The notes under the pieces: model-generated | Seen by the model: only the letters and a program-made list of their open reading frames with translations | What the model was told of the DNA's origin: nothing | The model's database searches: none | Part shown: positions 16,377 through 60,311 of the stretch, one piece after another | Layout: every line of letters starts with the position of its first letter | Numbering within the stretch: the first letter of the stretch is position 1 | Assembly (NCBI RefSeq): GCF_020037125.1 | Contig: NZ_JAIQDG010000002.1 | Span: forward strand, 372,001 to 436,000 | Origin: Myxococcus sp. RHSTA-1-4 | Lineage (GTDB): Bacteria; Myxococcota; Myxococcia; Myxococcales; Myxococcaceae | Reading direction: 5' to 3' | DNA length: 64,000 bases | Made by a program: the position numbers and the translations under genes

Positions 16377-18704
16377 GTGACTCTCGAAGCCGGAACCCAC
16401 ATCGGCAAGTACGTCGTCCGCCGCAAGCTCGCCGAGGGCGGGATGGCGGAGATCTACCTGTGCACGGCCCGCGGCCCGGAGGGCTTCGAGAAGGAGGTCG
16501 TCATCAAGCGGGTGCGCGCCTTCCTGGCGAGCGACCCGGAGTTCGTCGGGATGTTCATCGCCGAGGCGCGGCTGGCCTCGCGGCTGAACCACGCCAACGT
16601 GGTGCAGATCTTCGACTTCGACAAGCACGAGGACACGTACTACCTGGCCATGGAGTACGTGCGCGGCTGCTCGCTGTGGGAGCTGCGCAAGAAGTGCAAG
16701 GAGCTGATGGAGCCGGTGCCGCCGGTGCTGGTGGCGCACATCGGCGCGGAGGTGGCGCGGGGTCTGCACTACGCGCACCGGCTCAAGGTGAACGGGCAGC
16801 CGCTGGACCTGGTGCACCGGGACGTCACGCCGCACAACGTGCTGCTGTCCTTCGACGGGGCGGTGAAGCTGACGGACTTCGGCATCGCGAAGGCGGGCAA
16901 CAAGCTCACCCAGCCCGGCGTGCTGAAGGGGAAGTTCGCGTACATGTCCCCGGAGCAGGCCCGTGGCGAGGCCGTGGACGCGCGCACGGACATCTTCGCC
17001 CTGGGCGTGGTGCTGTGGGAGATGCTCACGGGCGGGCGGCTGTTCGACGGGGACTCGGAGGTGGCGGTGCTGCGCGCGGTGCAGCAGAGCGCCATTCCGC
17101 CCCCGGCCCGGCTCAACCCGGACGTGCCGGCGGACCTGGACGCCGCCGTGGTGCGGGCGCTGGACCGCGACCCGGGGGCCCGCTTCCAGACGGCGGGGGA
17201 GCTGGAGCGCGCCCTGGCCCAGTGCGTGCTGAAGCACGCCCGGTCGGTGGACGACACGGACCTGAGCGCCTTCATGCGGCGCCTGTTTCCCACCAGCCTC
17301 ACCCAGGCCCTGCCCACGGTGCAGGAGCGGACCCACGTCGAGCAGGTGCCGACGCCCCCGGGTGACGAGGCTCCTGTCCCGGCCCCGCGCGAGCCCACGG
17401 CGGTGATGCCGGGGGTCTCCAGCGGCCGAGGCATCGCGGTGGCGCCGTCGCCCGACGAGGACGTCAACGCGAGCACCTTCGTGCTGCCTCGCAGGGACGA
17501 GGAGCCCGTCGCCGCGCCCGTGCCGCTGCCGCCCATGGCCACGCCGATGATGCCGCTGCCGGCCGTGGCCTCGTCGCCGGTGCCGCGCCCCCTGCCACCC
17601 CTGGCCGCGCCCATTGCCGCGGTTCGGCCGAGCCGTCCGGAGGGCACCCCGGCGGTGCCCCCGCCCGAAGCAGGGGAGGGTGACGTCGCGGTGTCGTCCG
17701 GCACGGCTTCCGGAGCGAGGCTGCCGGGCCAGGGGGAGGGCGTGCCGTCGCCGGGGATGGGGGCCGCGACCGACGGAAAGCGACCGAGCCAGGGCGGGGG
17801 AGTTTCGTCCGTGTCGTCGGGGACGGCTTCCGGCACGAAGCGGCCGAGCGGGGCGAGAGACCTGCCGTCCGTGTCGTCGGGGACGGCTTCCGGCACGAAG
17901 CGGCCGAGCGGGGCGAAGGGGCTGCCCGCGGTGCCATCCTCCGGGACGGACTCCGGGAGGCGGCCGAGCCGTCCGGATGGGATGCAGGCCGTGGAGGAGG
18001 AGAGAACCGAGTCGTCGACCGAGCCCGCCGCCCTGGCTGATGCCGAGCTCCCCGAGAACGAGCTCCCCGGCGCGCGGGAGGAGGGCTCCGGAGGGGTGAG
18101 GCCCGTTTCGCGCCGCCGCCCGCTGGCGCTGGGGCTGAGCGCCGCGCTGGGCCTGGCCGTCGTCGGAGGCGGAGTGGCCCTGATGCGCTTCCGCGCCGAG
18201 CCCGCGCCGGCGACCGCACCCTCGGAGGCCGGAACGGCCGCGTCCGCCGGGATGCCGGCTACCACGGGCGGGCCGCCCGCCGTCTCCCCCCCGGCTTCCG
18301 CCGCTCCGGTGGACGCCGGGAGCGAAGCGGCGCTCGCCGTCGCTCCGCCCGCGAATGGTGGCGAGGACGCCGACTCCGAGGTGGACGGGCTGAAGCGGGA
18401 GGAAGCGCTCGCCGGCACCGAGCCCCGGCCCGCTTCGGGGGACTCGCGGCCCGAGGCCTCCGAGACACGGGAGGCCCGTCCGGCCGTGTCCACGGGCACA
18501 CTCCAGGTGCGCGCCGCGCCGTACGCCACCGTGTTCATCGACGGGAAGAAGATGGGTGAGGTCTCGGGGCGTGCCTCGTACCGGCTGCCCCCGGGCACCT
18601 ATAAGCTGGTCTTCCAGCACCCCACCGGCGACAAGCGCTTCGACGTCACCGTCACCGCCGGCGGCTCCGTGACTCGCGAGTTCCGGGCGCCCCGAGCCCG
18701 CTGA
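16377..18704 (+). CDS. Membrane Ser/Thr protein kinase with one PEGA domain (kinase 2)
   Basis: 775 residues from a GTG at 16377; the frame is open back into kinase 1 but the kinase fold starts here. The catalytic set is complete: Lys44 (VVIKR), HRD-V-TPHN (147-154), DFG (167-169) and MSPEQ. The linker (about 310-575) is low-complexity and contains an exact 20-residue duplication around 17807-17916. One membrane helix (about 578-600) is followed by an Ala/Pro-rich spacer and a single C-terminal PEGA domain (TLQVRAAPYATVFIDGKKMG). It is probably co-transcribed with kinase 1 (20 bp gap). The kinase domains are similar but clearly diverged, pointing to an old tandem duplication. Confidence 0.88.
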   Translation: MTLEAGTHIGKYVVRRKLAEGGMAEIYLCTARGPEGFEKEVVIKRVRAFLASDPEFVGMFIAEARLASRLNHANVVQIFDFDKHEDTYYLAMEYVRGCSLWELRKKCKELMEPVPPVLVAHIGAEVARGLHYAHRLKVNGQPLDLVHRDVTPHNVLLSFDGAVKLTDFGIAKAGNKLTQPGVLKGKFAYMSPEQARGEAVDARTDIFALGVVLWEMLTGGRLFDGDSEVAVLRAVQQSAIPPPARLNPDVPADLDAAVVRALDRDPGARFQTAGELERALAQCVLKHARSVDDTDLSAFMRRLFPTSLTQALPTVQERTHVEQVPTPPGDEAPVPAPREPTAVMPGVSSGRGIAVAPSPDEDVNASTFVLPRRDEEPVAAPVPLPPMATPMMPLPAVASSPVPRPLPPLAAPIAAVRPSRPEGTPAVPPPEAGEGDVAVSSGTASGARLPGQGEGVPSPGMGAATDGKRPSQGGGVSSVSSGTASGTKRPSGARDLPSVSSGTASGTKRPSGAKGLPAVPSSGTDSGRRPSRPDGMQAVEEERTESSTEPAALADAELPENELPGAREEGSGGVRPVSRRRPLALGLSAALGLAVVGGGVALMRFRAEPAPATAPSEAGTAASAGMPATTGGPPAVSPPASAAPVDAGSEAALAVAPPANGGEDADSEVDGLKREEALAGTEPRPASGDSRPEASETREARPAVSTGTLQVRAAPYATVFIDGKKMGEVSGRASYRLPPGTYKLVFQHPTGDKRFDVTVTAGGSVTREFRAPRAR
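17807..17916 (+). repeat. 60-bp in-frame tandem duplication inside kinase 2
   Basis: Bases 17807-17856 and 17867-17916 are identical over 50 bp with a 60-bp period, encoding the repeated SVSSGTASGTKRPSGA. It lies in the disordered linker, so copy number can probably vary without loss of function. Confidence 0.85.
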
Positions 18705-35639: not shown

Positions 35640-37574
35640 CTACTGGATGCTCCACACCACGGTGCCGCTGCAAGAGTTGCTGCTGTAGCAGCCGGCGCGG
35701 ATCTGCAGCGTGCCGGTGGCCGTCGCCGTGTACGTCAGGCTGGAGCCCACGCCGCTGCACGCGTCGTCGTTGGCGGCCGCCTGCGTGGCGCCGTTGAAGA
35801 GGCGCAGGTACGTGTCACCGGTGAACGAGGCGCCCGTCAGGCCGCAGGTGGCCACGGTGATGCTCTGCCCCGCGGTGATGCTGACGTCCCGGTTGGTGGT
35901 GTTCTGCTGCGCGCTGTTGGTGTTGCTGGCGCTGAAGGTGAACGAGCCACCGGTGGGCGGCGGAGGCGGGGTGCCGTTGGTGATTTCCCACACCACGGTG
36001 CCGCCGCAGCTCCCGCTGGAGTAGCAGCCGGCGCGGACCTCGAAGTCGCCGCTGGTGGTGGCCGTGTAGGTGATGCTGGAGCCGCGGCCGCCGCAGGCGT
36101 CGTCGTTGGAGGCCACCTCGACGGCGGAGGGGCTGAACAGGCGCAGCCAGGTGTCACCGGTGAGGGTGGTGCCCGTCAGGCCGCAGGTGGCCACGGTGAG
36201 CTTCTGGCCGGCGGTGAGGGCAATCTTCTTGTTGGTGGTGTTCTGCTGCGCGCTGTTGGTGTTGCTGGCCGTGTAGGTGAAGGAGTTGGCCGGAGGCGGG
36301 GGCGGCGGCGGAGGCGGCTCGCCGGTGCCATTGGGGTTCGGGCAGCCGGCGGCGGGCAGGGCACACGTGGGCAGGCTGGTGCCCAGGTGGCTGATGACGG
36401 CCTGGATGGGCACGCCGCGGTTGGGGCAGTTGGCACAGTGGTGCAGCGCCACCACCAGGTTGTCGCCGTGGCCGATGACGGGCGAGCCCGACGAGCCGCC
36501 CTGCGTGTCCGCGAAGTAGCCCACGTCGTTGGGGCCACCCGTCTGGCAGGAGGCCTCCGTCAGGCTGTAGACCTCGGCGAAGCCGGACTGGTCCCGGCTG
36601 TCCGTGGACGTGACGGCGATCTTCTTGCCGTAGCCGGCCGGGTGCTGCGGGATGAAGATGCGCTCGTCCACCACGGCGCCGGTGGAGCGCAGCTGCAGGT
36701 AGCCGTAGGTGGCGGTCGGGTTCTGCGACAGCTGCACCAGCGCGTAGTCACGCGGGGCGTCCACCGCCACCAGCGTGCCGCCGGCGATGACGTTGCCCGG
36801 GCAGCCGAACCAGCTCGCGCAGCTCGTGGTGCAGGTCGCGCCCTCGGCCATGAACTCGAAGTTGGTGTTCGCCGCGTCGCTGGCGGTGCCGATGCAGTGC
36901 TGGTTCGTCATCAGGTGGCCCTGGCTGCCCACGAGCCAGCCGGTGCACGCGCCGGAGCCGTTGATGAGCAGGCGCGCCACCGGACGGGCGCGGCCGTAGA
37001 TGGCGGGGTCGCTGGAGGCGTAGCAGGGCGCCCAGCCGGAGTCGTCCGCGCCGCACAGGGCCTCGTTGAAGCTGGCGAAGCCCATCTCCTGGTTGGAGAA
37101 GCCGCGGGCGTACCGGTCGATGGAGTAGCCGTGCTTGTTGAGGATGCCGCGCCGGCCGGAGTTGTCCCGGCTGTGCAGCTCGATGATGGCCGTGTCGCCG
37201 GGGATGTGGATGGCCCAGAAGCCGTCGCGGGCGGCGGGGTGCGAGTTGTCGTAGCTCCACGAGCGCGAGCCGTCCGGCGAGCGCACCACGACGAAGTCTC
37301 CGTCCTCCAGGTCCAGCCGCTCGAAGTGCGGGGCGATGTAGGCAGCGCCGGGGTGGTTGATGACGTCGGAGTGCACGGGGCCGCTCTCCGAGCGCAGCTC
37401 CGTGGTGGCGTACGGGTGCGCCGTCTCGAAGCGCCGGAAGACGTCCTCGCCGACCTTGGTGGGCCCCTGCGAGGCGGCGGAGGGCTCCGCCTTGCATACG
37501 GGCGCCGAGGCCAGCGCGGCCGGCGCCGCCAGGGACAGCGCTGCGGCGAGACATGCGAGCTGGATGCGTTTCAT
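35640..37574 (-). CDS. Secreted trypsin-like serine protease with two C-terminal beta domains
   Basis: 644 residues from the ATG at 37574 (GGAG upstream). A Sec signal peptide (about 1-23, cleavage after ALAS-A) and a propeptide-like region (to about 195) precede the protease domain. The triad is visible: His226 in TNQHC, Asp276 in PRDYALV and Ser362 in GGSSGSP, with several disulphide-capable Cys. A poly-Pro linker leads to two domains of about 100 residues, each starting SFT(Y/F)xASNTNSAQQNTTN and containing ATCGLTG, NDDAC and RAGCYSS; these resemble PPC-type domains. The duplicated domains probably bind substrate or the cell surface. The gene diverges from the MshEN gene. Confidence 0.9.
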   Translation of the reverse strand: MKRIQLACLAAALSLAAPAALASAPVCKAEPSAASQGPTKVGEDVFRRFETAHPYATTELRSESGPVHSDVINHPGAAYIAPHFERLDLEDGDFVVVRSPDGSRSWSYDNSHPAARDGFWAIHIPGDTAIIELHSRDNSGRRGILNKHGYSIDRYARGFSNQEMGFASFNEALCGADDSGWAPCYASSDPAIYGRARPVARLLINGSGACTGWLVGSQGHLMTNQHCIGTASDAANTNFEFMAEGATCTTSCASWFGCPGNVIAGGTLVAVDAPRDYALVQLSQNPTATYGYLQLRSTGAVVDERIFIPQHPAGYGKKIAVTSTDSRDQSGFAEVYSLTEASCQTGGPNDVGYFADTQGGSSGSPVIGHGDNLVVALHHCANCPNRGVPIQAVISHLGTSLPTCALPAAGCPNPNGTGEPPPPPPPPPANSFTYTASNTNSAQQNTTNKKIALTAGQKLTVATCGLTGTTLTGDTWLRLFSPSAVEVASNDDACGGRGSSITYTATTSGDFEVRAGCYSSGSCGGTVVWEITNGTPPPPPTGGSFTFSASNTNSAQQNTTNRDVSITAGQSITVATCGLTGASFTGDTYLRLFNGATQAAANDDACSGVGSSLTYTATATGTLQIRAGCYSSNSCSGTVVWSIQ

Positions 37575-37681: not shown

Positions 37682-37928
37682 GTGCATGGCTCCGGTGGCT
37701 CTTTCGTCTCACTGCCCCCGGGGGCAGGTAGGTGGGGAGGCGGGGTTCGGGCCTGCGTGATGCGTCACGCGCGGTGCGGCAGGGCAGGCAGGCATGCACG
37801 CTGTTTCACGCGGAGCGGTTGTTTCCGCCGGGTGGGGGGCCGCCCAGGGTGCGGGCGTGCGGAAAGAAGCGCCGGGTGCGGGGCGACACGGGGTGCTCGG
37901 GCGCGAAGCCGTCTACAATCCGAGGGGC

Positions 37929-40900
37929 ATGGCCGAAAAGCTTGGAGCGATCCTGGTCCGCAAGGGCCTCATCACGCAGGCGCAGCTCGACGAGGCCCTC
38001 AAGGCCCAGCTCATCTACGGTGGGCGGTTGGGCACCAACCTCGTCGAACTGGACATCCTCGACATCGACACACTGGCCATGGTGCTGGGGGAGCAGTCTC
38101 GCTACCCGGTGGCCCAGGAAGCGGACTTCGAGGCGGTTCCGGATGCGACGCTGGCGTTGTTGCCGGCCGCGCTGGCGGAGAAGCACCTCGCCTTCCCGCT
38201 GGGGCAGGAGGGACGGCGGCTCAAGGTGGCGATGGTGAACCCGCAGGAGCTGCGGGACACGGATGCGCTCAGCTTCGCGACCGGGTTGCGCATCGTCCCG
38301 TATGTCGCGCCCGAGCTGCGCGTGTATCACTTCCTGGCGAAGCGCTACGACATCAAGCGGGAGGCGCGGTACATCCGGCTGGAGCCCGGAAGGCGTCCGG
38401 CTCCGGTCCAGGCCATGGCGGTTCCCGCGGGCGCCGCGCGAGCACCGGCGGCGGCGCCCGCCGTGCCTCCCGCGCCCGTGCGTCCCGCCCCGGACGCCGG
38501 GGGAATGTTCGGCGGGCTCGCGCCGGGCCAGTTCCTCAGTGACGATTCGGACGACGAAGGCACCGATACGGGCACGGCACCGCCCGCGAATGTGCTGCCT
38601 CCGCCCGCGCCGCCGCAGCTCGCCGCCATGGACGCGTCGCGAGGCGCGCAGGTGCCCGGGGCCACGAGGCCCGCGGCTCCACCCCGGCTCGCGCCCGCCG
38701 TGGCGGAGCCGCCCCGGCTTGCCCCTCCCGTCCAGGCGGAGGAAATCGACGTGCTGGAGGCGGACGTGCTGGAGGAGGTCCCGGTGGTCACGGGCGTCGG
38801 CTCCGAGCCTCCGGTGTTGGGGGCCGTCGGGGAGCGCGTGCCCGTGGGAGGGCGTCCCGGCTCACCGCCTCGCCTCACGCCGACGGAGATGCCGCGTGTG
38901 GCGGTGCCTCCGCAGCTGGCTTCCACCGAGGGGGCTCGGGCCATGCCGCCGCAGCTCGGGCAGGCGCAGGCCGCGCCGCCACGGCTGGCCGCTTCGGTTC
39001 CGGCGGAGGCGCCGGTGCCCACGGGCGGCGCGCAGCCGCCGGGCATGGTGGCGCGTCAGGCTGGAGGTCCGGGCGCGATGCCGCCGCAGCCTCCGGTGAT
39101 GAATCGGGCCCCGCAGGCTCCGGGCATGGCCACCGCGCCGACGCCGCCGCCCGTGATGGGGCAGTCCCGTCCCATGCCGCCGCAGGGTGGGCCCGCCGGG
39201 GCGGAAGGGCCGCAGGGACCTGCCGCGTCCATGCCGCCGGGGATGATGGCGAGACCTGCCCCGGCGCAGGCGATGGCGGGGGCCGCCGCGGTGCCGCCCG
39301 GAATGATGGGCGCCTCGGGGGCACGGCCTCCTTCGGCGACGGGAATCCCCACTGTGCCGGGGCCTCAGGGGGCTGTTCCGCCGGGCATGGCGCGTCCGCC
39401 GACGCCGCCGCCGGGTGCCGCGCAGCCGCAACCCATGCCGCCGCAGGGCGCTGCGCCGCGGCCTCCTGCTGGAGCGCCGCAGCCTCCGGCGATGGCGCGG
39501 CCCATGCCTCCGCAGGCAGCGGCGCCACAACCTCCCGGCATGGCTCCCAGGGGCATGTCGCCCACGATGGCGCAGGGTGGGGCGATGGCTGCTCACGCCG
39601 GGGGCGCGGTGCCTGCGCAGGCGCCCGCGAACGCGCCCATGGCGACTCCGTCCGGGGCAATGCCTGCTCATGCGGCCGGAGCTGTCTCCTCGCATGCGCC
39701 CGCGAACGCGCCCATGGCGACTCCGTCCGGGGCGATGCCTGCACATGCGGCTGGGGCTGTCCCGCCGCAGGCTCCCGCGCACCCGGCCACGCCCCCTCCG
39801 TCCGGAGGGATGCCTGCTCAGGCGTCCGGGCCTGTACCTCCGCAGCCATTGGCGAATCCGGCCGCGGTGTCGCCTCAGGGAGCGAGGCCCCCGCAGCAGC
39901 CGGGAGCGCCGTCGGGGCCCATGCCCGCGAACGCGCCCATGACGCCTCCGCCGGGAGCGATGTCTCAGGGGGCCCGTCCCCCCGCGATGCCGGGGGCTCC
40001 CATGCCTCCGGGCGCCGCGAGGCCGCAGATGCCGCCGGGACAGATGATGCCTGCGGGCGCGGGTGGTCCGCCCATGCCAGGCCAGGCGAGGCCCATGGCG
40101 CCGGGCATGATGCCGGGCGCTCCGGTGCCTCCGGGCGCCCCGATGGGCGCGCAGCCGGGAATGCCTCCCCGCCAGGGGCCGCCTCCGGGCGGGCCGATTC
40201 CCCCTGCCGGTGCTCGCGGGCCCGGCATGCCTCCGGGGATGCATGGCCCGGGAATGCCGCAGGGCGGTCCGCCCATGCCCGCGCGTCCGTCGCAGTCCGT
40301 TCCCGCGGTGGGCATGGCACCTGCCGCGCAGCCTCGGCCCGGAGAGGCCCCGCAGGCCCGTGTGTCCGGTCCTCCGATGGCGGCGCCTCCGGGGATGTCC
40401 CAGGTTCCGCCGGGGATGTCGCCCGCGGCTTTGAGGCCTCACGGCCATGCGCCGTCGACCCCGTCCCAGGCCGTTCCGGTTCCAGCGCAGCCACCTGCTC
40501 CCGCTTCGGAGGCGCAGGCACCGTCGTCCAGCGTGGACCTCGCCGCCCCCGTACTGTCCCTTGCGACCGGGGACGTGGCGGAGCCAACGCATGTCACGGG
40601 CGACCAGCGCCCGGGCCAGTCGCATCCCGCGGAGGCGGGTACTGCGCCGGTGCTCGAGGCCGGGAAGGACGCTGTCGTCGAGCAGGCAGCGCCCCACCGT
40701 GACGAGTCCAGCCCGGTTGCGGGGACTGCGCCGGTGCTCGAGGCCGGGAAGGACGCTGTCGTCGAGCAGGCAGAGCCCCACCGTGACGAGTCCAGCCCGG
40801 TTGGGAGTACTGCGCCGGTGCTCGAGGCCGGGAAGGACGCTGTCGTCGAGCAGGCAGAGCCCCACCGTGACGAGGCCAGCCCGGTTGGGCCGTCGGACGC

Positions 40901-42764
40901 CGGAACCCCCGGCACCGCGCGCACGGAACCGGAGGCAGCGGCTCCCACCGGCGAACAGCCGCACGCGTTGAACGCCGAGTCCGCCTCCGCGCCCCTCACA
41001 CCAGCGGTAGAGGTTCTCGAGGCCAGCGCCGAGCCCGTGATGACGAACCCGGCGGGGCAGGGGGCTGAATCCTCTGCCACCGAGACCGCGCCCGTCGCGA
41101 TGGACGCGGAATCGTCTGCCCGGACGGACTCGGGGGCCGACACCGATGCTGCCTCCGTGACGACTCGGATGGCAGTCCTCGACATAGCGGTCGAGCCCGC
41201 CAGCGTGACCGAGGATGCGGCGCCGGTGTTGCCGGATGCCATGAATCCAGCGGCCGTCACTCAGGGCGAGCCACGTGAAGAGCTCGCGACTGTCGACCTG
41301 TCCGCGGAGCCGAGCGAGCAACTCGACGTCGCCGCGGACAGCGAGCCACGGATGGAGACAGAGCGGACCACGGTCTACGGCTTCGCTCTGCCCGCGGATG
41401 AGCCTGGCGAGGACGACCCCAGTCTCTCCACGGAGTCGGGCACTTCGGTCGAGGCAGGTGCTCCAGCATCCGTGCTGGTTCTGGACGCGGAGGTTCTCGG
41501 CGAAGCGCAGGCCGAAGCCGCACCGTCGCTCCAGGCGGGGGCTGATGCGGACAGCTTGGCGTCCACCTCCGACGCAGGTACGCCGCCAGCCGATGCGCAG
41601 CCGGTGATGCAGCAGGGCGAAGGACTCTCGGACTCCCGTGCCACCGCGGAGGCCGAGCCCTCCTCTTCCGAGCACCCCGCTGCGACGGGTGCCGAGGGAG
41701 CGCCCCAGCCGGACACGACGCCCCCTCCATCGGTCGTTGCCGCCTCCGAGGACGCAGTCACGGCCCGCGCTGCCGCGGAGCCCGGGTCCACCTCCGAGAG
41801 CACCGCTCAGGACTCCGCGCCCGCCGCCACGCTCGGCGCGGACGCGGCGTCCGTGTCTGTCGCCGCGAGTCCCGTGCAGGCCTCGGCCCAGGAGTCCGAG
41901 CCCACCTCCGACACCGCCACTCCAGAGGCGCCGGAGCCGGAGCAGGCCGCTCCGCGAGCCCCCATCGAGCTCGACGACCTTCCCGCCTCCTCCGGCGACA
42001 CGATGGAGCTCGCGTCGACGTGGGAGTTCGTGGGCTGGCAGGGCCACGAGGGCAATGGGACCATCGGCCACACCGCGGAGACGACCTGGGCGGATCGGGC
42101 CGTGGACCTCGACGGGCCGGCCGTCGCCGCCGTGCCAGCGGAGCCTCCGGCGTCCGAGGTGCCACTGGCCTCGGCGTGGGACTTCATCCAGCAGCCCTGG
42201 CAGCCTCCGGCGGGGCCCTCCGAGCTCGTCACCTCGCTCCTGGCCGCGGCCAGCGCTTCCACGGAGACGCCGTCCGGCGGGCCGTCGGTGACGGCGGAGC
42301 AGGTGCTCTCGGCGCTGGACGCCGTGGGGACGCAGGGCACGCTCGGCAAGGTGCTGCTCGCGTACTGCGCGGGACGCTTCCGGCGCGCGTTCCTGCTCGG
42401 CGAGAGCCTCGGCCTCGCGCGGGTGGGGCACGCCTGGGGCCCGGGCAGTGACAGCCCGGCGGTGTCCGCGCTCAAGGTCGATCTCGAGGCCCCGTCGCTC
42501 CTCACCACGGCGATGGCGGGCACCGGCCCGAGCGTCTTCAACGCTCCGAGCTGCGCACAGGACGAGGCCATCTTCTCCGCGCTCGGCGAGACCTCCTCGC
42601 GGTTGCTGGTCGTCGCCCTCCGGAGCCGGGGCCGTCCCGTCGCCTTCGTCGTGGCGGACTCCGGCTCGGAGCCCGTCGACAGCGCGCTCCTCGAGGACCT
42701 CGCCCGCGTCGTCGACAAGGCGTCCGAAGCCTACGACCGCCTCCCCGCGTACCGGGGCGAATGA
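37929..42764 (+). CDS. Giant protein: N-terminal MshEN (GspE_N-like) domain, long Pro/Met/Ala linker, C-terminal GAF-like domain
   Basis: 1611 residues from the ATG at 37929 (GAGGGG just before). Residues 1-150 match the MshEN/GspE-N domain of type II secretion and type IV pilus ATPases: LGAILVRKGLITQAQLDEALKAQ, a second helical half, then LGQEGRRLKVAMVNPQEL, but no ATPase follows. Residues about 165-870 are low-complexity Pro/Met/Ala/Gly/Gln with 25-residue repeats. Residues about 903-987 are three 28-residue repeats. An acidic region runs to about 1400. The last 180 residues look globular (VLSALDAVGTQGTLGKVLLAYCAG, RLLVVALRSRGRPVAFVVAD) and resemble a GAF fold. MshEN domains can bind c-di-GMP. 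The role is unknown. Confidence 0.75.
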   Translation: MAEKLGAILVRKGLITQAQLDEALKAQLIYGGRLGTNLVELDILDIDTLAMVLGEQSRYPVAQEADFEAVPDATLALLPAALAEKHLAFPLGQEGRRLKVAMVNPQELRDTDALSFATGLRIVPYVAPELRVYHFLAKRYDIKREARYIRLEPGRRPAPVQAMAVPAGAARAPAAAPAVPPAPVRPAPDAGGMFGGLAPGQFLSDDSDDEGTDTGTAPPANVLPPPAPPQLAAMDASRGAQVPGATRPAAPPRLAPAVAEPPRLAPPVQAEEIDVLEADVLEEVPVVTGVGSEPPVLGAVGERVPVGGRPGSPPRLTPTEMPRVAVPPQLASTEGARAMPPQLGQAQAAPPRLAASVPAEAPVPTGGAQPPGMVARQAGGPGAMPPQPPVMNRAPQAPGMATAPTPPPVMGQSRPMPPQGGPAGAEGPQGPAASMPPGMMARPAPAQAMAGAAAVPPGMMGASGARPPSATGIPTVPGPQGAVPPGMARPPTPPPGAAQPQPMPPQGAAPRPPAGAPQPPAMARPMPPQAAAPQPPGMAPRGMSPTMAQGGAMAAHAGGAVPAQAPANAPMATPSGAMPAHAAGAVSSHAPANAPMATPSGAMPAHAAGAVPPQAPAHPATPPPSGGMPAQASGPVPPQPLANPAAVSPQGARPPQQPGAPSGPMPANAPMTPPPGAMSQGARPPAMPGAPMPPGAARPQMPPGQMMPAGAGGPPMPGQARPMAPGMMPGAPVPPGAPMGAQPGMPPRQGPPPGGPIPPAGARGPGMPPGMHGPGMPQGGPPMPARPSQSVPAVGMAPAAQPRPGEAPQARVSGPPMAAPPGMSQVPPGMSPAALRPHGHAPSTPSQAVPVPAQPPAPASEAQAPSSSVDLAAPVLSLATGDVAEPTHVTGDQRPGQSHPAEAGTAPVLEAGKDAVVEQAAPHRDESSPVAGTAPVLEAGKDAVVEQAEPHRDESSPVGSTAPVLEAGKDAVVEQAEPHRDEASPVGPSDAGTPGTARTEPEAAAPTGEQPHALNAESASAPLTPAVEVLEASAEPVMTNPAGQGAESSATETAPVAMDAESSARTDSGADTDAASVTTRMAVLDIAVEPASVTEDAAPVLPDAMNPAAVTQGEPREELATVDLSAEPSEQLDVAADSEPRMETERTTVYGFALPADEPGEDDPSLSTESGTSVEAGAPASVLVLDAEVLGEAQAEAAPSLQAGADADSLASTSDAGTPPADAQPVMQQGEGLSDSRATAEAEPSSSEHPAATGAEGAPQPDTTPPPSVVAASEDAVTARAAAEPGSTSESTAQDSAPAATLGADAASVSVAASPVQASAQESEPTSDTATPEAPEPEQAAPRAPIELDDLPASSGDTMELASTWEFVGWQGHEGNGTIGHTAETTWADRAVDLDGPAVAAVPAEPPASEVPLASAWDFIQQPWQPPAGPSELVTSLLAAASASTETPSGGPSVTAEQVLSALDAVGTQGTLGKVLLAYCAGRFRRAFLLGESLGLARVGHAWGPGSDSPAVSALKVDLEAPSLLTTAMAGTGPSVFNAPSCAQDEAIFSALGETSSRLLVVALRSRGRPVAFVVADSGSEPVDSALLEDLARVVDKASEAYDRLPAYRGE
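39621..39770 (+). repeat. 75-bp coding repeats in the proline-rich linker
   Basis: Two units with a 75-bp period (starting 39621 and 39696) encode APANAPMATPSGAMPAHAAG and are nearly identical over about 60 bp. More diverged units follow on the 3' side. Confidence 0.75.
40638..40889 (+). repeat. Three 84-bp tandem coding repeats
   Basis: Three consecutive 84-bp units encode TAPVLEAGKDAVVEQA then (A/E)PHRDE(S/A)SPV. They differ at only a few bases, so the array expanded recently and is a candidate for copy-number variation between strains. Confidence 0.9.
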
Positions 42765-53901: not shown

Positions 53902-56001
53902 ATGCTGGCGCGACTGCTCCGAGCCGACGAACCGTCCATCTACGTCCATGTCCCCTGGGAGGACGTCGCGGACGAGGCGCTGCCGCCTCCGCCCCTGCGC
54001 GAGGGCCTGGGCACCGCGCACCTGGAGGTGAGCACCCGCGAGCCGCTGGCGCAGGCGTACTTCGACCAGGGCCTGCGGCTGCTGCACCTGGGCTGGGGCG
54101 AGGAGGCCCGCCGCGCCTTCGCCGAGGCGGCGCGCAGGGACTCCGGACTGGCCATGGCGTGGTGGGGGCTCGCCCTGGCGCGTGGCGCGGGTGCCCGGTT
54201 CGCCGGCGCGCGCGCGGAGGCCACCCGCCGCGCGCTGGCCTTGAGCGAGGGCGCCACGGACGTGGAGCAGCGCTACGTCGTCGCCGCCAGCCTGCTGGCG
54301 GACAAGGGGCCCGCCAACGGCCGCCATGCCTTCGTGCGGGACATGGAGTGCCTCATCGACCGCTACCCCGAGGACGCCGAGGCGCGGCTGCTGCTGGCCG
54401 GCTTCCTCCTCGACGGCTACGAGCCGGACGGCCGCCCCGGGCAGGGACAGCCCTACGCGCAGGCCCTGCTACGTGAGCTGCTGCGCACGCACCCGGACCA
54501 CGCGGGTGTGCACTGCGCGTGGGTGCACGCCATGCTGCACAGCGCCCGGCCCGAGGCCGCGCTGGAGAGCGCGAGGAAGCTGGTGCGGCTCGCGCCCGCG
54601 GCCAGTCCGGCGCTGCTCGCCGCCGGCCGGCTCCTGCATCGGGTGGGGAAGGTGGACGAGGCGCGCCGCGCGCTGGAGGCCGCGGTGGCGGCGGACGACG
54701 CGTGGCTCGCGGGGGAGCACCTGCCGCACACGGCGGCTCCGAGCGCCGAGACCGCCATGCGGCTGCTCAGCCAGGGCTGCGCGGAAGCGGGGCAGTACAC
54801 CGAGGCCCAGGCGTGGGCCCGCCGCCTGCGGCACCGTGTGGAGGAAGCGGGGCGCGAATCCCAGGCGCTGCTCGTCCACCGCCGCGCCGAGGCGGTCCGG
54901 GACACCGAGGCCCTGTCCGGATTCCTCCCTCAGCACCGCGTGGATGGCGCGGGGAGCGAGCCCCAGGCCCTGCTCGGTCAGGGCCGCGCAGAGCCGGGCC
55001 AGCACACGGACATCCCATCCTCGGCTCACCGCTCACGTGACCTCGTGGAGGGCGCTGGGAACCAGTCCCAGGTGCTGCTCGGCCAGCACGCCGGCCTCCG
55101 TCCGCCGCACCGCGTGGATGGCGCGGGGAGCGAGCCCCAGGCCCTGCTCGGTCAGGGCCGCGCAGAGCCGGGCCAGCACACCGACCTTCGTCCGTCGCAC
55201 CGCGGGGAGAGCGCGGGGAGCGAGCCCCAGGCGCTGCTCTTCGCGGCCATCACCATGGTGTCCACGCACCTGCGCTTCGGCTTCTGGCGCGCGGCGGCGG
55301 ACGTGCCCATGGAGCTGCCGGAGTCCGCCCCGCTGGCCGTCCGGGCGCTGCGCGACGGAGTCCGCCTGTACACGCGCGGGGTGAGCGCGCTCGAGGCGGG
55401 GAAGCTGATGGAGGTGGAGCGCGCGTGTGACGCGCTCGATGCGCTGCACCCGCCGCTGTCGGAGGAGCGCCGCTCGGAGGGACGCCTGCTGTGCCCCCGT
55501 GATGTGGCGCGGGTGGTGGAGGTGGCCGCACAGGAGCTGCGCGGCTCGCTGGAGGCCCGCCGGGGCGACGCCGGCCGTGCCGAGGCCACGCTGACGCGGG
55601 CCGTGCGCCTGGAGCGCCGTCTGCGCGCCGCCGGCCCCGCGCCCTTCTCCCGCTCGCCGCGCGAGGCGCTGGCCCGCCTGCGGCTGCGCTCGGAGCGCGA
55701 GGACCGGGCGCTGTCCCTGGCCCGGACGCTGGTGTCGGAGCGGCCCGGCTGCGGCCACTTCCGGCTGCTCGCCGCCGAGGCCCAGGTGGCCCTGGGCGCC
55801 TGGGACGACGCGGTGGCGGACTTCACCGCCTTCCTCGACTGCTGGCGTGACGCGGACCCGCACCTGCCGGAGCTGCGTCGCGCACGGACCTTCATCGCCG
55901 GCCGGGGCCGCGTCCTGCGTCTCGTCCACTCCTCCGACGTCCCGACGCCCCTGGAGGCGGGGGCCCCGGCCTTCCGGGTCCTGGAGACGGTGTCTTGCTG
56001 A
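53902..56001 (+). CDS. TPR-repeat protein carrying an expanded internal repeat
   Basis: 699 residues from the ATG at 53902 with AGGAGG 5 nt upstream. Residues about 45-330 hold TPR-type helices (AQAYFDQGLRLLHLGWGEEARRAFAEAARRDSGLAMAWWGLALARGAG, a form common in Sel1/TPR proteins found near copper and zinc genes). Residues about 310-450 are an insertion of repeated units HR(V/G)xxAGSEPQALLGQGRAEPGQHTD, with two DNA copies 100% identical over 75 bp. Beyond it the helical pattern resumes (FAAITMVSTHLRFGFWRAAADVPMEL). No signal peptide is seen. The MerC-like gene overlaps its end by 7 bp, so the two are co-translated. Confidence 0.75.
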   Translation: MLARLLRADEPSIYVHVPWEDVADEALPPPPLREGLGTAHLEVSTREPLAQAYFDQGLRLLHLGWGEEARRAFAEAARRDSGLAMAWWGLALARGAGARFAGARAEATRRALALSEGATDVEQRYVVAASLLADKGPANGRHAFVRDMECLIDRYPEDAEARLLLAGFLLDGYEPDGRPGQGQPYAQALLRELLRTHPDHAGVHCAWVHAMLHSARPEAALESARKLVRLAPAASPALLAAGRLLHRVGKVDEARRALEAAVAADDAWLAGEHLPHTAAPSAETAMRLLSQGCAEAGQYTEAQAWARRLRHRVEEAGRESQALLVHRRAEAVRDTEALSGFLPQHRVDGAGSEPQALLGQGRAEPGQHTDIPSSAHRSRDLVEGAGNQSQVLLGQHAGLRPPHRVDGAGSEPQALLGQGRAEPGQHTDLRPSHRGESAGSEPQALLFAAITMVSTHLRFGFWRAAADVPMELPESAPLAVRALRDGVRLYTRGVSALEAGKLMEVERACDALDALHPPLSEERRSEGRLLCPRDVARVVEVAAQELRGSLEARRGDAGRAEATLTRAVRLERRLRAAGPAPFSRSPREALARLRLRSEREDRALSLARTLVSERPGCGHFRLLAAEAQVALGAWDDAVADFTAFLDCWRDADPHLPELRRARTFIAGRGRVLRLVHSSDVPTPLEAGAPAFRVLETVSC
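54933..55181 (+). repeat. 75-bp exact direct repeat with 174-bp period inside the TPR gene
   Basis: Bases 54933-55007 are identical to 55107-55181. The 174-bp period is 58 codons, so the frame is kept. A third, partial and diverged copy lies near 55198-55239 and an ancestral-looking unit before 54900. Exact identity indicates a recent duplication or gene conversion. Confidence 0.9.
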
Positions 56002-56411
56002 CCGCCGCTTCGAACACGACGGAGACCTCCCGCTGGGACGGCGTGGGACAGCTCGTCTCCGCGCTGTGCATCGCCCACTGCGTGCTGCTGCCCGTGGTGC
56101 TGGCCCTCCTGCCGGTGGCCCTCGCGGAGGTGCTGGAAGCCGAGGCCGTCCACCACGGCCTCCTGGCACTGGTGGCGGTGAGTGCGCTCGCCGCCTTCGT
56201 CCCGGGTTGGCGCCTCCACCGCCGGGCGTCCGCGCCACTGCTCGCAGTGCTCGGCATGGCGCTGCTTGCGGGCGGGGCCTTCGGCGTGCCGGAGGATGCC
56301 GCCGGGCCCTGGGAGACGGTCCTCACATTCGCTGGCGGCCTGGTGATGGCGCTGGCCCATGGCCGCAACCGGACGCTGTGCCGCGACTGTTGCCCTCCCG
56401 AACCGGCGTGA
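55995..56411 (+). CDS. MerC-domain inner-membrane protein
   Basis: 138 residues from a TTG at 55995 that overlaps the TPR gene stop; GGAG lies 9 nt upstream. Four hydrophobic helices are visible, the first containing the MerC Cys-His signature SALCIAHCVLLPVVLALLP. The C-terminal tail NRTLCRDCCPPEPA adds a Cys cluster. MerC was described as a mercury transporter, but many genomic copies lie in zinc-regulated groups. Here it sits within 3 kb of a ZnuABC-like operon. Zinc or another soft metal is therefore a better guess than mercury; no merA or merR-type resistance gene is present. Confidence 0.8.
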   Translation: MLTAASNTTETSRWDGVGQLVSALCIAHCVLLPVVLALLPVALAEVLEAEAVHHGLLALVAVSALAAFVPGWRLHRRASAPLLAVLGMALLAGGAFGVPEDAAGPWETVLTFAGGLVMALAHGRNRTLCRDCCPPEPA

Positions 56412-58636: not shown

Positions 58637-59500
58637 TCAGCGTGCCCGCTGGAACAGGCCCATGAGGGAGCGCAGGCCCATGGCCACGGCGACCAGGACG
58701 CCGGCGAGCACCGTCTGCGAGCCGCCCACGGGGAAGTCGAAGAAGTAGGCGAAGAGGTAGCCGCCCACGCCGGAGATGGCGCCCGCGAGGGTGGCGACGA
58801 AGAAGGTCCAGGGCAGCCGCAGCTCCAGCATCAGCGCGGCGATGGCGGACAGTGTCGAGAAGGCGAACACCGGCAGCGCGCCCAGGGCGCGGGCACACAC
58901 GCCCACCATGACGCCGATGGACACCATCAGCGCACCGTCCAGCAGGCGCACCGGCAGGCCCTGCACCAGCGCGCCAATCCGGTCGAAGCTGGCGAAGGTG
59001 ATGCCCCGGTACCACCACAGGTGCAGGACCATCACCACCGCGCCGGCGATGGCCACGGTGTGGAGCTGCTCGGGCGTCACCAGCACCGCGGTGCCGAAGA
59101 GGATGCCCTGGATGTCATGGGCCTCCTGGGCGATGCGGTCGCCCACCAGCACCGCCGCGCCTCCCGCCAGCGCATATGCGAGGCCGAGCAGGCTCTCGCG
59201 CGTCAGCCGCAGCTTCGTGGGCTCCGTCATGAGGAGCAGGGTGGCCGCCAGCGCCATCAGGGTGGCGCCGACGACGGGCTCCACGTGCATGCCCAGGTGG
59301 ATGCTCGCGTAGAAGGCCAGGGCCACGCCAAGGCCCGCGGACTGGGCCACGGCGGCGCTGACGAACACCATGCGCCGCAGCACGACGTAGACGCTCAGGA
59401 AGCCCAGCACGCCCCCGGCGATGAGGGCGCACAGCAAGGGGTCCCTGAACAGCTCGAAGCCGGCCAGGAACTCGTCCCACTTCGAGGGTTCAGCGAGCAT
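58637..59500 (-). CDS. znuB: Metal ABC transporter permease (ZnuB-like)
   Basis: 287 residues from the ATG at 59500, overlapping the end of the ATPase gene by 11 bp; a GTG 6 nt earlier is possible. The family start is clear (FELFRDPLLCALIAGGVLGFLSVYVVLRRMVFVSAAVAQSAGLGVALAF), with the conserved block SLLGLAYALAGGAAVLVGDRI and LPVFAFSTLSAIAALML. About eight membrane helices are visible. With the ATPase and binding protein it should import Zn(II), or less likely Mn(II)/Fe(II), across the inner membrane. It is the last gene of the operon, just before the terminator hairpin. Confidence 0.9.
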   Translation of the reverse strand: MLAEPSKWDEFLAGFELFRDPLLCALIAGGVLGFLSVYVVLRRMVFVSAAVAQSAGLGVALAFYASIHLGMHVEPVVGATLMALAATLLLMTEPTKLRLTRESLLGLAYALAGGAAVLVGDRIAQEAHDIQGILFGTAVLVTPEQLHTVAIAGAVVMVLHLWWYRGITFASFDRIGALVQGLPVRLLDGALMVSIGVMVGVCARALGALPVFAFSTLSAIAALMLELRLPWTFFVATLAGAISGVGGYLFAYFFDFPVGGSQTVLAGVLVAVAMGLRSLMGLFQRAR

Positions 59501-60311
59501 CGGGTCCACGGTGGGGTCCCTCGGGTGCCTTGTGGCAGTACTCGTCGCCGTACTGGCGGCGGAAGGCGGGGTGGCAGAATACTGTCTTCGCGTCGCCCAC
59601 CACGAAGGCGGACGTCTCGCGGTCCACGAAGAACAGGATGTCGGCGTGCTCGGCGGCCACCTCCAGGTCGTGGACCACCACCACCACGCCCAGGCCCCGC
59701 TTGCGCGCCAGCGCGCACAGCCGCTGCATCGTCTCGCGCTCGGCGACGGCGTCCATGGCGGCGGTGGGCTCGTCCAGCAGCACCAGGTCCGCCTCCGTGG
59801 CGATGAGCCTCGCCAGCAGCGTGCGCTGCTTCTGGCCCTCCGACAGCTCGCGGTACGGCCGCGGGGCAATGGCCCTGGCCCCCGAGGTCTCCAGCGCCTT
59901 CTCCACCGCGTCGCGGTCCACCTTCCGGGAGAACGGCCACAGGAAGCTCCACCCGCGCAGCCGGCCCCAGGACGCCAGCTCCCGCGCCCGGATGGGCAGC
60001 AGCGAGTCGATGGCCGACGTCTGCGGCACGTACGCGCTGCGCATGTCCGGCGAGGCGCGGGTGATGCTGCCGGACACGGGCTGGATCATCCCCAGCAGCG
60101 TCTTGAACCACGTGCTCTTGCCGGAGCCGTTGCGGCCCACCACCGCCACGAACTGGCCGCGCCGGATGACCATGTCGATGGGCGGCAGCATGGGCTTGTC
60201 GTTGTAGCCGATGACCAGCTTCTCGCAGGTGAGCAGCGGCTCGCCCGGCGTGAAGGTGGGCGGCACCTCGTGCTCGAAGGCCTGCGGCTCCTGTACGTCA
60301 CCGGTCTTCAC
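59490..60311 (-). CDS. znuC: Metal ABC transporter ATP-binding protein (ZnuC-like)
   Basis: 273 residues from a GTG at 60311 with GGAGG 6-7 nt upstream; it overlaps the preceding lipoprotein gene by 14 bp. Walker A GRNGSGKST, Q-loop in VPQTSAID, signature LSEGQKQR, Walker B LVLLDEPTAAMD and the switch His in VVVHDLE are all intact. The C-terminus carries an extra FCHPAFRRQYGDEYCHKAPEGPH tail with Cys and His residues, a feature of metal-importer ATPases that may sense or bind zinc. It drives the permease at 58637. Confidence 0.92.
   Translation of the reverse strand: MKTGDVQEPQAFEHEVPPTFTPGEPLLTCEKLVIGYNDKPMLPPIDMVIRRGQFVAVVGRNGSGKSTWFKTLLGMIQPVSGSITRASPDMRSAYVPQTSAIDSLLPIRARELASWGRLRGWSFLWPFSRKVDRDAVEKALETSGARAIAPRPYRELSEGQKQRTLLARLIATEADLVLLDEPTAAMDAVAERETMQRLCALARKRGLGVVVVVHDLEVAAEHADILFFVDRETSAFVVGDAKTVFCHPAFRRQYGDEYCHKAPEGPHRGPDAR

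Follow-up and report, generated by a model that had tools for sequence, protein, structure and literature searches.

The gene for a tetratricopeptide repeat (TPR) protein at positions 53902..56001 (+ strand) of the window, the whole 64,000-nucleotide stretch of DNA from a Pyxidicoccus/Myxococcus-type bacterium that was analysed, encodes 699 residues plus a stop codon and contains a 366-bp in-frame insertion (54868..55233, +). The inserted 122 residues (323–444) account for the difference between 699 and 577 residues and comprise four extra copies of a hairpin unit that the gene already possesses. In our best reading, to which we assign a probability of about 0.85, the insertion arose by internal tandem expansion, the copies drifted under relaxed selection, one of them was shortened by a slippage deletion, and 75 bp were then recopied in a recent conversion-like event.

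The gene was delimited by its translation, Pfam matches, and orthologues. The product as a whole is a TPR protein, with matches above the cut-off to the models TPR_16 (6e-09, 36.6 bits, cut-off 32.7) and TPR_19 (8.5e-07, 29.7 bits, cut-off 25). None of the best Pfam stretches spans the insert. Two NCBIfam models matched the protein, both under the cut-off, and the search of PDB sequences gave six weak matches, the best with an E-value of 0.045. The 50 matches listed from the PDB fold search include TPR and other helical-solenoid proteins with TM-scores by query length of 0.16–0.26, and these values are so low that no function was inferred for the protein. Judged by their titles, the papers listed in literature searches do not deal with this gene, and none paired Pyxidicoccus with tetratricopeptide. 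The gene is located directly upstream of a MerC-domain gene (55995–56411, Pfam 5e-23) and an isochorismatase-domain gene. A metal ABC transporter permease and ATPase are encoded nearby (58637–60311, −); their best models, each below its cut-off, are AztA for the ATPase and TIGR03770 and AztB for the permease.

Orthologues are present in all 27 genomes of the genus, including the source genome of the window (G000). The protein has a length of 574–577 residues in 25 of the genomes, 650 in genome G012, and 699 in G000. G000 and G012 are sisters with a support of 0.995 in a protein tree of 27 sequences calculated from 574 core columns. In a second collection, covering Myxococcus, Pyxidicoccus, Corallococcus, Hyalangium, and others, 18 of 19 loci lack an insert at this site; the 19 loci were found with an alignment query, and a single-protein query found none. 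The sole insert-bearing locus in that collection belongs to Pyxidicoccus fallax DSM 14698 and is very probably that of G012, judging from the match coordinates, which are 167–2116 in both, and from the letters of the insert. One orthologue (L059, 4001–5731) comes from a record titled Comamonas sp. KCTC 72670, a name that looks wrong, since the sequence aligns to Myxococcus-type orthologues at 76%.

A sequence-only reading of the window had described a recent duplication event within a TPR gene and expected the ancestral gene to lack it. The 25 of 27 genus genomes without the insertion bear this out, and an equal repeat number in distant species, which that reading had named as an argument against itself, was not seen in the genomes compared. 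The other objection that it raised was an assembly artefact. The draft state of the genome, with 134 contigs, speaks in favour of it, but the units are separated by many substitutions, the exact 75-bp repeat is shorter than common sequencing reads, and the separately assembled sister genome has an insertion at the same place. An artefact is highly improbable.

The insert is preceded by U0 (54763..54867, +), a native hairpin unit of 35 residues, which we infer to be the natural source of the repeats because its counterpart exists in the orthologues. The extra units are U1 (54868..54969, +, 34 residues), U2 (54970..55074, +, 35 residues), U3 (55075..55143, +, 23 residues), and U4 (55144..55233, +, 30 residues). 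The length of U0, U1, and U2, 34–35 residues, is approximately that of one TPR. U1 shares 74 of 101 aligned bases with U0 (z 12.6), U2 70 of 103 (z 13.3), U3 37 of 48 (z 6.8), and U4 68 of 90 (z 11.4), and none of 500 codon shuffles reached the score of any of these pairs. All ten pairs among U0–U4 outscore each of 500 codon-shuffled controls at the DNA level, with z between 6.8 and 19.2. U4 is followed by the native LLFAA segment. In the alignment, a conserved segment borders the insert on each side. Judged by the sequences compared, the insert is an internal tandem duplication: its units share homology with the native unit beside them, and the orthologues are without them. Compared to U4, U3 lacks 21 nt; the gap is bordered by two short direct repeats, GGTCAG and GGCCAG, and is such as a replication slippage deletion would leave.

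Two further suggestions of the sequence-only reading concern the nature of the units. It had regarded HR-AGSEPQALL units as an insertion that breaks the TPR pattern; however, the motif is not foreign, as orthologue L003 natively has one, HRVEGAGSEPQAVL. It had also considered a selfish coding minisatellite. In-frame repeated units of unusual composition speak for this, as they would for a mobile element inserted into the gene. Neither reading holds against the identity of the unit, which is the gene's own neighbouring hairpin, or against the distribution of its copies. Copies at other loci, by which a mobile or selfish element would be recognised, were found neither in the source genome nor in 96 genomes of the family. 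A 77-base query recovered this locus three times from the source genome, the next match being 32 bases at 84% (E 0.009), and the genome contains no further copy above 36.5 bits. A 126-residue insert query, with up to 45 candidates scored per genome, matched 11 of the 96 family genomes, all from the same genus. All 12 matches listed are in this TPR gene; they cover its native unit, or its insert in the case of G000 and G012. The region 54800–55300 has no match in a plasmid collection. A selfish or mobile origin is extremely improbable.

The exact repeat is formed by a 75-bp patch at the end of U1 and the start of U2 (54933..55007, +), and a second copy at the end of U3 and the start of U4 (55107..55181, +). 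The two copies are offset by 174 bp, or 58 codons, and are in frame. Comparison of the letters confirmed to the base the claim of identity over 75 bp at this spacing. The bases flanking the copies differ on both sides. From base composition, with a match probability of 0.299, approximately 10^-31.6 pairs of this kind would be expected in the 64-kb window at distances of up to 1 kb. The older, diverged copies that had been noticed on either side are real; they belong to family D1 and match its reference copy at 69% and 63%. The range of 54933–55181 given at that time is correct for the repeat, but misses the full extent of the insertion, 54868–55233, and the source unit at 54763–54867.

At an offset of 174, identity is nearly full only from about 54930 to about 55005; elsewhere it is mostly 2–9 of 15, with the exception of a lone 15-nt bin at 55200 (13 of 15). 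A recent tandem duplication of 174 bp would leave about 174 bp of identity, and therefore a local patch, copied by gene conversion or a template switch, fits better. Whole-unit alignments differ by 11–32% (U1–U3 and U2–U4 include halves of the patch), and the 75-bp copies are identical. Had both copies already been present when the lineage split from G012, the synonymous rate applied to all 75 sites would predict 15.9 differences between them, with a probability of identity P(0) of about 1.2e-7. The expectation is 7.1 differences at the mean rate of the core (P(0) 8.6e-4) and 4.45 if synonymous sites alone were free to change (P(0) 0.012). These low probabilities indicate that the recopying is probably later than the split from G012. 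The pooled pS of U0 against U1–U4 is 0.374, higher than the 0.212 between the cores of the two sisters, which suggests that the expansion itself began before the split.

The recent recopying, the apparent slippage deletion in U3, and the difference in insert length between the sisters (+73 versus +122 residues) could also be signs of an array that is unstable now, with a unit number that differs among strains and perhaps tunes the length of the protein. However, there is a single exact pair of such length, and differences of 11–32% between whole units should slow recombination. Furthermore, none of 26 intragenic arrays of Legionella was reported to have changed in three months of passage (PMC2639597). 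Active copy-number variation is rather unlikely.

Exact direct repeats of at least 30 bp within 1 kb form five clusters in the window. Per 400 kb, there are six such clusters in the source genome (sampled), three in G002, and 14 in G021. All spacings are multiples of three in 27 of 28 clusters, a count that refers to distances and not to individual reading frames. None of the 11 clusters from G000 has a repeat longer than the 75-bp one, but two of those from G021 do. These counts make the 75-bp repeat a strong example of a common class. Other repeats in the window include three tandem 84-bp units with 96% matches (40635–40887), which are in frame within a Pro/Ala-rich open frame of 1656 residues (37794–42764). 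In a DNA search of the 27 genomes of the genus, this array was matched in G000 alone; two other genomes gave matches of 33 bases. The same open frame contains 3.6 copies of a 75-bp period with 80% matches (39579–39845). A 60-bp period at 17778–17916 (2.3 copies, 88% matches) includes an exact 51-bp repeat, and a 339-bp period at 35652–36285 has 1.9 copies with 79% matches.

The core and the units of the TPR protein differ in the distribution of substitutions. In the 577 codons of the core, G000 and G012 differ at 33, 24, and 106 sites of codon positions 1, 2, and 3, respectively, and the excess at position 3 is the mark of purifying selection. In the codon alignment of the units, which was made by hand, the differences are much closer to even: 9/9/12 for U0–U1, 4/4/4 for U1–U3, and 7/6/6 for U2–U4, the most uneven pairs being U0–U2 (10/9/15) and U0–U4 (10/5/10). 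The Nei-Gojobori dN/dS of the core is 0.20 against G012 and 0.26–0.39 against five other genomes, and U0 compared with its counterpart in 26 orthologues gives 0.27. The pooled value for U0 against U1–U4 is 0.64, and single pairs range from 0.37 (U0–U2) to 1.43. These estimates are derived from pairs that are not independent, with a unit pS of 0.14–0.51 resting on few synonymous sites, 17.5–27.4 per pair. Eight of the ten unit pairs have a dN/dS below 1, and together with the value of 0.37 for U0–U2 this indicates that some constraint on the units may remain.

The GC3 of the insert is 0.852, lower than the 0.926–0.967 of sampled 122-codon core windows; U0 has 0.886 over 35 codons. The insert of G012 has a GC3 of 0.932, and therefore low GC3 is not common to both inserts. 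Proline and glycine together constitute 22.1% of the insert and 23.3% of that of G012, compared to 13.9% of 27 native units; no 122-residue window of the core exceeds 16.4%. These values are in line with a loss of helix.

The structure predicted by AlphaFold2 from an alignment of 20 rows has a mean pLDDT of 67.3 and a pTM of 0.47. U0 (residues 288–322) is predicted to be helical, and its second helix extends with declining confidence over the first 17 residues of U1, up to residue 339. Residues 340–439 have no predicted structure, with block pLDDT values of 26–34, and are flanked by confident helices, the next of which is formed by residues 440–458. The low pLDDT of this segment is partly expected because 18 of the 20 alignment rows are gaps there, leaving a depth of two sequences. 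Most probably, the extra residues constitute a flexible loop that is tolerated between solenoid helices. Alternatively, the extra units may have been selected as an additional binding surface, in agreement with the open frame in both species and the predominance of unit dN/dS values below 1. Such a functional new domain is very unlikely, as the three codon positions have nearly equal shares of the differences, residues 340–439 are without confident structure, the inserts are little conserved between the sisters, and the insert is covered by none of the best Pfam stretches.

The insert of G012 has 73 residues, differs from that of G000, and is located at the same position. The sequences agree with an origin of both inserts from the same native unit, and allow either one shared expansion with much turnover or two separate expansions. 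A shared origin is unproven because the similarity between the inserts and the profile similarity are weak. In their best local stretch the two inserts share 82 of 118 bases (z 3.7), a score reached by two of 500 shuffles, despite a core pS of just 0.212. U0 of G000 matches the G012 insert more clearly (58 of 87 bases, z 5.2, 0 of 500 shuffles) than the G000 insert does, and the native unit of G012 together with its insert contains no strong internal repeats (best 23 of 30, ungapped). These comparisons argue for separate insertion events in the two species, at a hot spot common to both. In contrast, the inserts occur only in sister taxa and at the same position, and share the short motifs GLRP and GxGRAE, identified by eye, that are absent from native units. 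The G012 insert is also scored slightly better by the profile of the insert units (3.4 bits) than by that of the native units (−0.5 bits). Independent origin is a tentative possibility, on balance somewhat unlikely. It is doubtful whether the site represents a recombination hot spot specific to the lineage, where a folded TPR hairpin has been repeatedly duplicated and remodelled into a disordered segment with fast turnover. If true, this would mean that a repeat protein has been caught early in the conversion of an ordered unit to a novel domain that is disordered.

In the expansion, drift, and recopying that we favour, the 105-bp U0 would first have been duplicated in frame several times. The duplication is strongly supported, and its placement on the branch common to both sisters is likely but unproven. 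The extra copies, under much weaker constraint, would then have drifted to a sequence richer in proline and glycine and probably disordered, as supported by the codon and composition data, and U3 would have lost 21 nt between short direct repeats. Finally, the 75-bp patch across a unit boundary appears to have been recopied two units away after the sisters split. The recency of this last step is supported; its mechanism could have been non-allelic gene conversion, template switching, or duplication.

The case looks like ordinary repeat-protein evolution with recent recopying, rather than a selfish element. It provides a clean example of unit gain in bacterial repeat proteins, with a known ancestral state, an insert-bearing sister, and a named source unit, and also shows the relaxed drift of copies and one recopying datable to the time after a species split. 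Its value is that of an illustration, and existing knowledge stays unchanged. As in the account of protein domain repeats by Bjorklund et al. 2006 (PMC1553488), the duplication is internal and tandem, lies beside its origin in the middle of the protein, and generates lineage-specific differences in length. That account describes duplication of several domains as commoner than that of single ones, whereas the period here is a single unit, and, unlike the repeats treated there, the present copies are degenerate and mostly predicted to be disordered. Relaxed selection on new repeat copies has been reported across life, including bacteria, by Persi, Wolf and Koonin 2016 (PMC5120217). Unlike their work, ours concerns one case only, in which the sites are too few for a dN/dS test of much strength; however, copies within the protein likewise diverge faster than orthologues, with occasional recent recopying. 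The intragenic tandem repeats reported from Legionella pneumophila include repeats of 102–108 bp in TPR genes (PMC2639597). Copy-number variation was measured there among strains, in 7 of 26 arrays, whereas the present comparison is between species. The Legionella arrays and the one described here are alike in their occurrence in TPR genes, in a unit length of about one TPR, and in lengths divisible by three.
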